Assembly (NCBI GenBank): GCA_012839295.1
Contig: DUNO01000013.1
Span: 62,001 to 126,000 of the forward strand
From: Clostridiales bacterium
GTDB taxonomy: Bacteria > Bacillota > Clostridia > Lachnospirales > Lachnospiraceae
Reading direction: 5' to 3'
Length of the DNA stretch: 64,000 bases
In this document: one piece after another, positions 21,152 to 62,246 of the stretch
How positions within the stretch are numbered: the first letter of the stretch is position 1
Layout: every line of letters starts with the position of its first letter
Made by a program: the position numbers and the translations under genes
The notes under the pieces: model-generated
The model's database searches: none
What the model saw: the letters and a program-made list of their open reading frames with translations, nothing else
Told to the model about the DNA's origin: nothing

Positions 21152-21240
21152 TTATCATCCAAAATAACTTTACCTTGACTGATGGATAAAATCAAGTGTT
21201 TTATTCTAAAATAATTGAGATTTTATAATTTTCGACATTT

Positions 21241-21450
21241 TCTACATAATATAAGTTATGAGAAGTTGTCTTTTAACTTCTCATAAAAGGCGCTGCCTTT
21301 GCGCCGTGCATCACGATTATGTAGAACATGCGTTTTGTTCTACATAATATAAGTTATGGGAAGTTGCTTTTTAACTTCTCATAAAAGGCGCTGTACTTGC
21401 GCCGTGCATCACGATTATGTAGAACATGCGTTTTGTTCTACATAATATAA
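21241..21450. repeat. Tandem three-hairpin element, locus A (2 units, period 98 bp)
   Basis: Each unit: H1 TTATGAGAAGTT/AACTTCTCATAA (second unit has one substitution), H2 GGCGC/GCGCC, H3 ATTATGTAGAAC/GTTCTACATAAT. Confidence 0.92.
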
Positions 21451-43180: not shown

Positions 43181-43340
43181 TAATATAAGTTCTCAGAAGT
43201 TGTTTTTTACTTCTGAGAAAAGGCGCTGCTTTTGCGCCGTGCATCGCGATTACAGGAAGATGGTTTTACTTCCTGTAATATAAAGTTCTCAGAAGTTGTT
43301 TTTTACTTCTGAGAAAAGGCGCTGCTTTTTGGCCGTTTTT
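43181..43340. repeat. Tandem three-hairpin element, locus B (1 full + 1 truncated unit, period 96 bp)
   Basis: H1 TTCTCAGAAGT/ACTTCTGAGAA, H2 GGCGC/GCGCC, H3 ATTACAGGAAG/CTTCCTGTAAT. Confidence 0.9.
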
Positions 43341-57253: not shown

Positions 57254-57305
57254 AACGTTATAGTTACCGATCACAGATTTATGTAATAGAATGAGGTGTG
57301 TCCTT

Positions 57306-57680
57306 ATGTTTGTTCAAATTGATTTTAATAGTGATGAAGCAATTTATATCCAGCTTAGGAATCAAATTATATACGGCATCGCCACATCACAGCTTCAGGA
57401 GGGTGAGAACCTGCCTTCTGTCCGTGACCTGGCGGAGCATATTGGAATCAATATGCATACTGTAAATAAGGCATACGCAATGCTGAAGCAGGAGGGATAC
57501 CTTAAGCTTGACCGCAGAAAGGGCGCGGTAATCGCAGTAGACATCGACAAATTGCAGGCAATCAGGGAAATGCGTGAAGAGCTTCGGGTAGTTCTGGCAA
57601 GAGCCTTTTGTAAAAATATCAGCTGCGAGGAGGCACACGAGATCGTTAACGATATTTTTAGTGAATTTGAAAGGGGGTAA
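57306..57680 (+). CDS. GntR-family (YtrA-type) transcriptional regulator
   Basis: AIYIQLRNQIIYGIATSQLQEGENLPSVRDLAEHIGINMHTVNKAYAMLKQEGYLKLDRRKGAVI; short C-terminus. Confidence 0.93.
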   Translation: MFVQIDFNSDEAIYIQLRNQIIYGIATSQLQEGENLPSVRDLAEHIGINMHTVNKAYAMLKQEGYLKLDRRKGAVIAVDIDKLQAIREMREELRVVLARAFCKNISCEEAHEIVNDIFSEFERG

Positions 57681-57684
57681 TACC

Positions 57685-58239
57685 ATGTTATGTGATAGAT
57701 GCCAGAAAAGAGATGCAAAAATACTGTACACGGAGATTATAAACGGAGTTAAAAAGGAACAGCATCTTTGTGAGGAATGTGCGACAGACTATACATCCTT
57801 TCAAATGGAGAAGCCGTTAATGAACAGTGATCTGACTCTGGGCGATTTACTTTCAACATTACTGGAGACCTACACCGGTGCGGGACAGAAAAAAGCTGGT
57901 ACGGATACACCGGCTTTAACCTGCGAAAATTGCGGAATGACCTATGATGAATTCATCGGAAAGGGACGTTTCGGATGCGCCAGATGTTACCAAAGCTTTC
58001 ATAATCAACTAAGTAAAACCTTTAAAGGAATCCAAGGCTCGGATATCCACACAGGAAAGCGGCCAAAGGGCTTGACAGCTACAGCCCAGCCCGGACAGGT
58101 AAAAAGGGACATCTCAGAAATCGAAATGCTGTCTATAAGGTTACAGGAGGCTATTGAAAAGGAAGAATTTGAGGAGGCAGCAAGGCTCCGCGATCTTATT
58201 AAGCAGATGCGGAAAGAGGAGGAGTTAAACAATGCTTAA
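57685..58239 (+). CDS. mcsA: McsA-like protein (zinc-finger, UVR motif)
   Basis: MLCDRCQKRDAKILYTEI...HLCEECA; CENCGMTYDEFIGKGRFGCARCYQSF; C-term UVR LQEAIEKEEFEEAARLRDLIKQM. Confidence 0.93.
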   Translation: MLCDRCQKRDAKILYTEIINGVKKEQHLCEECATDYTSFQMEKPLMNSDLTLGDLLSTLLETYTGAGQKKAGTDTPALTCENCGMTYDEFIGKGRFGCARCYQSFHNQLSKTFKGIQGSDIHTGKRPKGLTATAQPGQVKRDISEIEMLSIRLQEAIEKEEFEEAARLRDLIKQMRKEEELNNA

Positions 58240-59269
58240 ATGGTATGAGCAAATTGTTCCTGACAGCGACGTAGTAATCTCCAGCCGTGTCAGGCTCGCA
58301 CGTAACCTTGAAACCTATCCCTTTTCTTCGAAGATAGCAGATGAGCAGGCTCTCGCCCTGGTTGAAGAGGTTAAAGGAATTCATGCCTCCCTTTCAGAAA
58401 AAGAGAATAAAAGATTTTACGCCTGCAATATAAGTACCTTAAGTGATATCGATAAGATTGCCATGGTAGAACGCCATATCGTCAGCCCCCTTCTGGCAGA
58501 GAAGGAGCAGGCTACCGGGCTCATACTATCGGAAGATGAGACCATCAGTATCATGATCAATGAAGAAGACCATGTCAGGATCCAGGCGATTGTCGGAGGA
58601 ATGAATTTGGAACGGGCATACCTGGAAGCAGACCGGATTGACGATATTGCCTATGAAAAGTTACATTTTGCCTATGATGAAAAATACGGCTACCTGACCT
58701 CCTGCCCTACGAATGCAGGCACGGGCCTAAGGGCATCCTGTATGGTGTTTTTACCGGCACTCAGCTCCGCCAGGATGATACAGAAATTAATTGAGGAAGT
58801 CGGTAAATACGGTGTGACCATCCGGGGTATTTATGGAGAGGGAACAAAGAGCCTGGGAAGCATTTACCAGATCTCGAACCAGAAAACCATGGGTAACTCG
58901 GAAAGTGAAATAATAGAAAACTTAAAGCGGATTGTATTCCAGGTAGTCAAGCAGGAGCGTAAGCGCCGGGAATATATGCTGTCCGTCAATACGGACGAAA
59001 TCGAGGATCAGGTGTACCGCTCCTACGGAGTATTAAAATACGCCAGACAGATTTCCTCGGATGATGCAATGACCCTGTTATCCCAGCTGAAGTTTGGAAA
59101 GGACTGCGGCCTGATTAAATTTGACCGCGAGTTCAATGTCCACAAGCTGATGATGGGAGTCCAGCCGGGCAGCCTGCAATGGACCCTGGGTAAAAATGTC
59201 GGAAGCCTGACAAGGGATCAGTCAAGGGCGGAATATATTCGCAAGGAGCTGCCAACAATTATTAATTAA
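58232..59269 (+). CDS. mcsB: Protein arginine kinase
   Basis: DVVISSRVRLARNLETYPF; SCPTNAGTGLRASCMVFLPAL; GEGTKSLGSIYQISNQ. Confidence 0.96.
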   Translation: MLKWYEQIVPDSDVVISSRVRLARNLETYPFSSKIADEQALALVEEVKGIHASLSEKENKRFYACNISTLSDIDKIAMVERHIVSPLLAEKEQATGLILSEDETISIMINEEDHVRIQAIVGGMNLERAYLEADRIDDIAYEKLHFAYDEKYGYLTSCPTNAGTGLRASCMVFLPALSSARMIQKLIEEVGKYGVTIRGIYGEGTKSLGSIYQISNQKTMGNSESEIIENLKRIVFQVVKQERKRREYMLSVNTDEIEDQVYRSYGVLKYARQISSDDAMTLLSQLKFGKDCGLIKFDREFNVHKLMMGVQPGSLQWTLGKNVGSLTRDQSRAEYIRKELPTIIN

Positions 59270-59277
59270 AGTACTCT

Positions 59278-59394
59278 CAGCAAGAATGGAGGACACAAGG
59301 TTGATAGAAATAAAATTAGTGAACGAAGGGAGGCCGGGTCCATGCTGGCACTTGAATAGCGATTTGTGCAGTAAAGGGCATGGACATGAATATG
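59278..59394 (+). promoter_or_regulatory. Leader element overlapping the clpC start (copy 2, shared with rapZ)
   Basis: GTCCATGC (59338-59345) / GCATGGAC (59378-59385) with the clpC ATG inside the 3' arm; aligns with 28861-28973. Confidence 0.75.
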
Positions 59395-61863
59395 ATGTAT
59401 GATAAATTTACGGAAAACGCAAAAAGCGCCATAAACCTGGCGAGGGAAGTAGCTTACCGCTTATCCCATAATTATATCGGAACGGAGCACCTGTTAATCG
59501 GATTGATGGAAGTGGATGGTGTGGCTTCTAAGATCCTGGAGGAAAACGGTGTCACCGTAGAGAAAGTATTGGAACTGGTAAACCAGCTGATCGCTCCCAA
59601 CAGCGGAGTGGAGATGATGGATGCCGGCAGCTTTACCCCCAGGTCTAAGAGGATCCTGGACCAGAGCTATAAGGAAGCAGCAAAGCTAAAAGCCCAGCTA
59701 GTGGGGACGGAGCACATTTTGATTGCGCTCATTAAAGAGTCTGACTGCATTGCTGTCCGGCTGTTGAATACCCTGGGCGTCAATATCCAGAAGGTCTATA
59801 TTGATATTCTTACAGCCTCCGGTGTGGATGTGAGCGCCGCTAAGAATGATTATGCTCCTCCTGCCAAAGGCAAGCAGAAGGGGAAGGCTACAGCGACCCC
59901 TACCCTTGACCAGTACAGCCGTGACCTGACGGAATATGCAAGGGAAGGAAAGCTGGATCCTGTCATTGGAAGAGAGCAGGAGATCCAGAGGGTGGTCCAG
60001 ATCTTAAGCAGGCGGACCAAGAACAATCCCTGCCTTGTGGGTGAGCCGGGTGTCGGTAAGACCGCGATTGCAGAAGGCTTGGCCCTAAAGATCGTAGAAG
60101 GCAATATACCTGATACCATTAAGGAAAAGCGTGTGGTTACCCTGGATTTGTCCGGTATGGTCGCAGGCAGTAAATACCGTGGTGAATTCGAGGAAAGAAT
60201 TAAGAAGGTAATCAGTGAGGTGATTTCCGATGGCAATGTCCTGTTATTTATCGACGAGATCCATACGATTATCGGTGCCGGCGGTGCGGAGGGTGCAATT
60301 GATGCCTCCAATATCTTAAAGCCTTCCCTGGCACGTGGAGAATTGCAGATTATCGGTGCAACGACACGGGAGGAATACCGTAAATATATTGAAAAGGATG
60401 CCGCATTGGAGAGAAGGTTCCAGCCGGTAGTGGTTGATGAGCCCTCCGAGGAGGAGGCAATCCAGATATTATTTGGACTGCGTGACAAATATGAAGCACA
60501 TCACCAGGTGCGTATCACTGATTCTGCCCTGGAAGCGGCAGTAAAATTATCCAGCCGTTATATTAACGACCGGTATTTGCCGGATAAGGCCATCGACCTG
60601 ATGGATGAAGCAGCCTCCAAGGTACGCTTAAGCACCTATACCTCCTCTCCGAGGATTAAGGAATTGGAGCAGGAGATTAAGCGTCTGGAGGAGGACAAAG
60701 AAAAGGCGATTAAGACCGAAGCCTATGAAAAGGCCGGAGAGATCAAGAAGCAGCAGGAAGCAGTACAGGAGCAGCTTGAGAAAGAAAGGCTCATAGATGA
60801 AAAGGAACGGTCAGAGAAGCAATTAGTCGTCAGTGACAATGAAATAGCAGAAATTGTGGCCACCTGGACAAAGATTCCGGTGAAAAAGCTGGCAGAGGAA
60901 GAGACGGAACGCCTTAAGAATTTAGAAAGCATCCTCCATCAAAGGGTAATCGGCCAGGAGGAAGCAGTTGCAGCGGTTGCAAAAGCAATCCGCCGCGGCC
61001 GTGTCGGACTGAAGGACCCGAACAGACCCATTGGCTCCTTCCTGTTCCTGGGGCCGACAGGTGTCGGTAAGACGGAGCTTTCCAAGGCCTTGGCAGAAGC
61101 CATGTTTGGCAGCGAGAATTCCATTATACGTGTAGACATGTCCGAATATATGGAGAAGCACAGTGTCAGCAAGCTGATCGGCTCACCGCCGGGATATGTA
61201 GGCTATGATGAGGGCGGCCAGCTCAGTGAAAAGGTCCGCCAGAATCCTTATTCCGTTATCCTGTTTGATGAGGTTGAAAAGGCACATCCGGATGTATTCA
61301 ATATCCTGCTCCAGGTATTGGATGACGGACATATTACGGATTCCCAGGGCAGAAGGGTCAGCTTTAAAAATACCATCATCATCATGACCTCCAATGCAGG
61401 GGCACAAAATATCGTGGCACCGAAACGCCTGGGCTTTGCTTCGGTGGTCGATGAGACCGAGGACTATAAGAAGATGAAGGAAGCGGTCATGGATGAGGTA
61501 AAGAAGATCTTTAAGCCTGAGTTCATTAACCGTATTGACGAGATCATAGTGTTCCATTCCTTGACAAAGGATAACATAAAGAGCATTGTATCCATTATGA
61601 TTTCTACAATTAATAAGAGGAGCAAGGCACAGATGAACATTACGATTGAGACGAACCAGGAGGTGGTGGATCATTTGGCGGAGACCGGCTTCGACCAGAA
61701 ATATGGCGCAAGACCTTTGCGCAGGGCCATCCAGTCAAATATTGAGGATAAGCTGGCAGAAGAGATATTGGCAGGCACTATAAAAGAGGGCGACAATGTG
61801 CTGGTAGAATACCTTGATAATGAAATCGTATTACGCCCTGTTAGTCCCGTAAGAGCTTCATAA
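59380..61863 (+). CDS. clpC: ClpC-type AAA+ ATPase
   Basis: N-term FTENAKSAINLAREVAYRLSHNYIGTEHLL; GEPGVGKTAIAEGLA; GPTGVGKTELSKALAEAMFG. Confidence 0.97.
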   Translation: MDMNMMYDKFTENAKSAINLAREVAYRLSHNYIGTEHLLIGLMEVDGVASKILEENGVTVEKVLELVNQLIAPNSGVEMMDAGSFTPRSKRILDQSYKEAAKLKAQLVGTEHILIALIKESDCIAVRLLNTLGVNIQKVYIDILTASGVDVSAAKNDYAPPAKGKQKGKATATPTLDQYSRDLTEYAREGKLDPVIGREQEIQRVVQILSRRTKNNPCLVGEPGVGKTAIAEGLALKIVEGNIPDTIKEKRVVTLDLSGMVAGSKYRGEFEERIKKVISEVISDGNVLLFIDEIHTIIGAGGAEGAIDASNILKPSLARGELQIIGATTREEYRKYIEKDAALERRFQPVVVDEPSEEEAIQILFGLRDKYEAHHQVRITDSALEAAVKLSSRYINDRYLPDKAIDLMDEAASKVRLSTYTSSPRIKELEQEIKRLEEDKEKAIKTEAYEKAGEIKKQQEAVQEQLEKERLIDEKERSEKQLVVSDNEIAEIVATWTKIPVKKLAEEETERLKNLESILHQRVIGQEEAVAAVAKAIRRGRVGLKDPNRPIGSFLFLGPTGVGKTELSKALAEAMFGSENSIIRVDMSEYMEKHSVSKLIGSPPGYVGYDEGGQLSEKVRQNPYSVILFDEVEKAHPDVFNILLQVLDDGHITDSQGRRVSFKNTIIIMTSNAGAQNIVAPKRLGFASVVDETEDYKKMKEAVMDEVKKIFKPEFINRIDEIIVFHSLTKDNIKSIVSIMISTINKRSKAQMNITIETNQEVVDHLAETGFDQKYGARPLRRAIQSNIEDKLAEEILAGTIKEGDNVLVEYLDNEIVLRPVSPVRAS

Positions 61864-61930: not shown

Positions 61931-62145
61931 TAATGTAAATTATGAGAAGTTGTTATTTAACTTCTCATAAAAGGCGCTGTACTTGCGCCGTGCATCTTGA
62001 TTATAGGAACATCTTTTTGTTCCTATAATATAAATTATGAGAAGTTGTTATTTAACTTCCCATAAAAGGCGCTGTACTTGCGCCGCGTACAGTGTGCCCT
62101 AAGGGGGCGCACCGGTTACAGGAAGATGACTTTGCTTCTTGTAAA
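61931..62145. repeat. Tandem three-hairpin element, locus C (2 units, period 95 bp; second unit carries an extra hairpin)
   Basis: H1 TTATGAGAAGTT/AACTTCTCATAA; H2 GGCGC/GCGCC; H3 ATTATAGGAAC/GTTCCTATAAT; unit 2 adds GTGTGCCC/GGGCGCAC. Confidence 0.9.
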
Positions 62146-62246
62146 TATAGGAGTAAATTATTATAGTTAGAATTAAAAAAATATTTAATCTACCAGGGCG
62201 TGTCTAGCTGGACACGGCTCATAGCCTAATTTAGGAGGGTCATGTA

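Follow-up and report, generated by a model that had tools for sequence, protein, structure and literature searches.

A three-hairpin intergenic repeat with covarying stems in Lachnospiraceae, a candidate non-autonomous mobile element

Here we describe a repeat unit of approximately 96 bp, composed of three hairpins (H1, H2 and H3) between terminal AATAT motifs, which recurs between genes across genera of the Lachnospiraceae and whose stem arms change in concert. We favour, with moderate confidence, the view that it is a non-autonomous mobile DNA element moved in trans by a putative enzyme that would recognize the fold, so that pairing would be kept through spread. Six copies lie within the 64-kb window (the whole stretch of DNA that was analysed), two at each of three loci (21248-21448, 43182-43336 and 61932-62146). 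The unit reads AATATAAG, H1, AA, H2 (GGCGC/GCGCC), a linker GTGCATCnCG, H3 and AT, and the repeat period is 95-98 because AATAT is common to adjoining tandem copies. The coordinates are collected in Table 1.

Table 1. Repeat copies and their parts in the 64-kb window
Feature	Position	Strand	Details
Locus A	21248..21448	+	Two complete copies in tandem, H3 ATTATGTAGAAC
Locus B copy 1, complete unit (AATATAAG-H1-H2-linker-H3-AT)	43182..43281	+	Covariance model 115 bits, E 5e-19
H1 of locus B copy 1	43190..43219	+	TTCTCAGAAGT (43190-43200) / ACTTCTGAGAA (43209-43219)
H2 of locus B copy 1	43222..43238	+	GGCGC (43222-43226) / GCGCC (43234-43238)
Linker of locus B copy 1			TGCATCGCG
H3 of locus B copy 1	43249..43279	+	ATTACAGGAAG (43249-43259) / CTTCCTGTAAT (43269-43279)
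AATAT	43277..43281	+	Common to locus B tandem copies 1 and 2; equals insertion core
Locus B copy 2, truncated	43277..43336	+	H1 intact (43286-43315), H3 absent
Locus C copy 1 (C1)	61932..62031	+	H3 ATTATAGGAAC/GTTCCTATAAT
Locus C copy 2	62027..62146	+	Extra linker hairpin (GTGTGCCCTAAGGGGGCGCAC), then decayed H3

At locus A the stems are TTATGAGAAGTT/AACTTCTCATAA (H1) and ATTATGTAGAAC/GTTCTACATAAT (H3), and an orphan H3 right arm, TTCTACATAAT (21240-21250), stands upstream of the tandem copies. The truncated copy at locus B has a broken H2 (GGCGC/TGGCC, the 3′ arm being TGGCC). Folding of the 171-nt locus B region as RNA gave z = -6.8, and a single unit folded as DNA gave z of about -7.3 to -7.8, both strands alike. 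Elsewhere in the genome from which the window derives (the source genome), some copies carry the extra linker hairpin and others are without H1 or H3, and the unit is therefore modular. One copy (L047, G000:C55:250125-250212) has an unrelated hairpin, ATGGCGACTT/AGGTCGCCAT, in place of H3; another (L040) has two H3-like hairpins in series; and a third (L063, G000:C76:327-401) is truncated after H2 directly before a putative tRNA gene, as judged by eye. Between loci B and C, at 57291-61863, the window encodes a GntR/YtrA-like regulator followed by genes that resemble mcsA, mcsB and clpC by sequence only; the usual gene before mcsA/mcsB/clpC in Firmicutes is ctsR.

The H1 and H3 variants that the sequence-only reading had described at loci A, B and C1 are all correct, each being matched on the opposite arm. 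Its interpretation would have failed had genomic copies shown no excess of compensatory changes, but across the copies an excess is indeed present. In 33 copies from the source genome, 97.0% of stem cells were paired, compared with at most 52% in slid structures, and 13 of the 28 stem pairs had changed on both sides. Cells with both-side changes numbered 55, against 14.0 ± 2.7 after shuffling (none of 500 shuffles reached the observed count, and the shuffle controls ignore relatedness of the copies) and 0-5 in slid structures. The excess recurred in three further alignments, which were fitted to the covariance model and consequently lean toward structure: 104 both-side changes versus 29 shuffled in the two complete Anaerocolumna genomes (alignment A2), 195 versus 57.5 in 96 source-genome copies (A3) and 68 versus 18 in 20 copies from six other genera (A4). 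Across genera the change in H2 is visible by eye, the arms reading GGTGC/GCACC, GGGGC/GCCCC or GGCGC/GCGCC. Because the covariation is found genome-wide and in other genera, structure either matters or is mechanically maintained. The earlier proposal, that selection or a copying mechanism keeps the stems paired, thus holds as far as covariation goes; covariation by itself is no proof of a functional RNA.

The repeat is abundant in the genomes that carry it. A pattern search allowing up to 3 mismatches returned 86 matches, compared with 2 for the reversed control. With a covariance model built from the 33 source-genome copies and a cut-off of E ≤ 0.01, we counted 104 copies in the source genome (6.36 Mb), 57 in the complete genome of Anaerocolumna sedimenticola CBA3638, 25 in that of Anaerocolumna sp. 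MB42-C2, 81 in the metagenome-assembled genome (MAG) bin_249, 35 in a MAG of Herbinix, the window's own genus (identical places and scores in G012 and G064), and 18 in a further genome of this genus. A survey of the family revealed the repeat in 7 of 200 sampled genomes, belonging to seven different genera, and related copies occur in Anaerocolumna and Herbinix as well as in six or more other genera; the distribution is patchy yet wide. Several draft contigs begin or end in or at the repeat (G000:C34:1, C52:1, C80:1 and the ends of C58 and C36); the arrays thus probably interrupt the assembly, and the copy number may be underestimated. A second dispersed repeat of ~75-120 nt, seemingly unrelated, was seen in Anaerocolumna flanks (L164, L165, L157 and L204 in G061).

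Placement is predominantly intergenic: 128 of 134 clusters lie between genes and 6 overlap an open reading frame (ORF) of >400 nt, with ORFs found by length only and a few clusters counted on both strands. Flanking genes occur in both orientations relative to the repeat, without orientation bias. Neither of the closed Anaerocolumna genomes begins at dnaA and orientation was judged by GC skew, whose sign relative to the element showed no bias (45/45 and 22/22).

Such indifference to the orientation of neighbouring genes speaks against the idea that transcript-level selection preserves pairing because the repeat works as a structured RNA (a small RNA, terminator, attenuator or processing site), an explanation that the strong predicted fold would suit. 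Were copies kept as RNA, most one-sided changes should be G-U. We binned copies by age, taken as divergence outside the stems. The youngest copies have few one-sided changes, with double changes above the expectation under independence; one-sided changes then pile up with age, and the oldest bin holds 89 single versus 35 double changes. In the last source-genome age bin, one-sided changes comprised 38 G-T and 33 A-C. Taking all copies together, G-T and A-C mismatches on the plus strand were near equal, at 41/39 in Anaerocolumna and 101/88 in the source genome, or 28/28 and 32/28 with each combination of genome, pair and type counted a single time. Among the strongest-scoring copies G-T is the commoner (8:4 and 6:2, with 15:3 distinct events for the other genera), as would be expected if the plus strand folds; this is a hint only, as the covariance model favours G-U and thereby biases top-scoring sets, and many wobbles in the other-genera set were inherited within one genome. 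Since older copies decay with G-T and A-C in equal measure, selection on each resident copy as RNA is unlikely. A known RNA family was rejected, as nothing in Rfam reached the gathering score (the best match, SraG, scored 17 bits where 50 were required, E 0.99). Taken as a whole, we regard the structured-RNA explanation as improbable.

A stronger competitor is template switching within the hairpin, in which one arm is copied onto the other (quasipalindrome correction), so that covariation would be mainly mutational and the repeat no more than a sequence passively moved or duplicated. A published proposal credits template switching with creating and preserving perfect stems (PMC8794818). Several of the covarying pairs are flips, from G-C to C-G in H1 and from C-G to G-C in H3, for which there is no wobble intermediate. 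Further evidence comes from five copies common to two Anaerocolumna species, a small sample, in which 4 of 127 pairs had changed on both sides, all from one Watson-Crick pair to another, compared with ~1.2 double changes of any kind expected at 9.7% per-site divergence; 16 of the 127 pairs had changed on one side. The L207/L196 pair was left out of this count, the aligned copies not being matching ones. The four compensated changes at shared sites indicate that some compensation arises in place, and this part of the covariation is not needed by the mobile-element model. However, the oldest bin retains many uncorrected one-sided mismatches, H3 bears no loop-inversion footprint and only 1 of 33 H1 loops is nearer the inverted form; nor would passive repair alone predict that three hairpins with conserved feet recur across genera. 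We regard template switching as a possible but doubtful main cause of the covariation. Pairing could be kept by spread of foldable copies only, by template switching from arm to arm, or by both.

Mobility is indicated by occupied and empty sites. The flanks of several loci are approximately 85-95% identical between the two complete Anaerocolumna genomes (G061 and G062), which allowed the two states to be compared. At one site G061 is uninterrupted, TTAATATA-CATTATATATT (reading TTAATATACATTATATATT), and G062 carries a copy there, arranged as TTAATATA-element-TAATATA-AATTATATATT, with TAATATA flanking the element on both sides. G062 lacks two of the G061 arrays, the overlap being either one ATATTATA-like sequence or a short T/A-rich stretch; of the empty sites, one is crisp and the remainder are aged. 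In a further comparison, the L152 array was absent from G062 but divergence was too great for an exact junction, no orthologous flank was found for comparing the L156 array with G062, and at L165 both species carry the element, the G062 copy having decayed. When examined for target duplication, an ATAATAT-like core flanks the insert on both sides and occurs once in the empty site; the right-hand core copy overlaps H3 and may hence belong to the element rather than reflect a target duplication. The consensus of solo copies reads ATAATATAAG on the left and ATAATATRA on the right, and conservation ends outside. The AATAT pentamer at both element ends and at tandem junctions thus marks a fixed T/A-rich insertion motif. 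In the Anaerocolumna arrays L156, L158, L151 and L194, H3 reads ACTAT...ATAGT and the junction core AGTAT, so the insertion core and the H3 foot change together.

A linked RAYT-like transposase, as proposed by the sequence-only reading, was not borne out: PF01797 (Y1 transposase) had no match in the source genome, in G061 or G062, or in G063 (a MAG with 81 copies), G207 and G257, whereas the same search matched 5 of 14 control genomes. Y1 genes sampled from other carriers had no repeat copy within the fetched flanks. REP/REPIN sequences are high-copy intergenic palindromes thought to spread via hairpin recognition, and the present repeat is likewise intergenic, palindromic, high-copy and hairpin-based, but it has three hairpins and its complete carrier genomes are without Y1 transposase; spread by a RAYT is accordingly very improbable. 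A search of G061 and G062 away from known copies for an autonomous insertion sequence with an H1 end recovered only decayed fragments, and viral contigs contained no exact core match and thus gave no sign of carriage by viruses. The gene following a copy made of H1 and H2 only (L038) was considered as a transposase and rejected, since by sequence it resembles a pyruvate formate-lyase activating enzyme.

Under the mobile-element model, the repeat would insert between genes at an ATAATAT-like core and leave the core on either side, so that later copies could be added head to tail with AATAT in common. The putative mover would most likely read the folded strand together with the conserved hairpin feet and the core, not the mid-stem; well-paired copies would therefore spread, and stems could drift provided that a change in one arm is matched in the other. 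After insertion, copies decay. We infer from these patterns both that the fold is recognized at mobilization and that a recombinase acts in trans. A more specific version, which we consider rather unlikely, is that a recombinase of a type new to hairpin repeats acts on the single strand folded into three hairpins and inserts it at the ATAATAT core, in which case the H3 5′ foot ATTAT, complementary to the core, might act as a guide.

The repeat is best described as a small non-autonomous intergenic hairpin repeat in the broad sense, not a REPIN, and we set it against bcr and BOX repeats by their descriptions. The bcr1/bcr repeats of the Bacillus cereus group have a TTTAT insertion motif, for which a mechanism like site-specific recombination has been proposed (PMC6542083), and a predicted common stem-loop structure (PMC2267715). 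By description only, our repeat resembles them in its ~100-400 bp class, intergenic position, tens to about 130 copies and T/A-rich pentamer at insertion, but differs in its core (AATAT/ATAATAT rather than TTTAT), its three separate hairpins and its occurrence in another bacterial family. BOX elements of Streptococcus pneumoniae and S. suis are modular and intergenic, with predicted stem-loops and variable inner modules (PMC3049150); architecture alone was compared, and it is similar in being a modular intergenic repeat with predicted stem-loops, whereas in our repeat entire units follow one another in tandem, adjoining units share five bases at the junction, and a single additional linker hairpin forms the optional module. 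Miniature inverted-repeat transposable elements (MITEs) such as RUP, Correia and ERIC are small, non-coding and A+T-rich and duplicate their target on insertion (PMC2229807). Our repeat shares the first three traits and, like them, is short, dispersed and present in many copies, but no clear terminal inverted repeats are apparent: the end hairpins H1 and H3 are loosely alike (TTATnnGAA), and the similarity between the left end, AATATAAG-TTAT..., and the reverse complement of the right, ATATTATnGGAA..., is weak as judged by inspection. Clop-1, Clot-1 and similar families are 74-93-nt intergenic stem-loop repeats in clostridia (PMC2267715), to which ours is alike by description as a clostridial intergenic stem-loop repeat, and identity in sequence may exist.

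We found no literature describing this repeat, nor any on Anaerocolumna or Herbinix repeats, within a coverage that mostly excludes subscription journals. The repeat thus constitutes a large and apparently undescribed intergenic family in the Lachnospiraceae, and its covariation is very clean. As closed genomes provide orthologous copies and copies of differing age, it offers a good natural test of how stems are kept up, by selection at mobilization or by template switching. The mover, if found, could show how bcr- and BOX-type repeats, which have no transposase of their own, spread.
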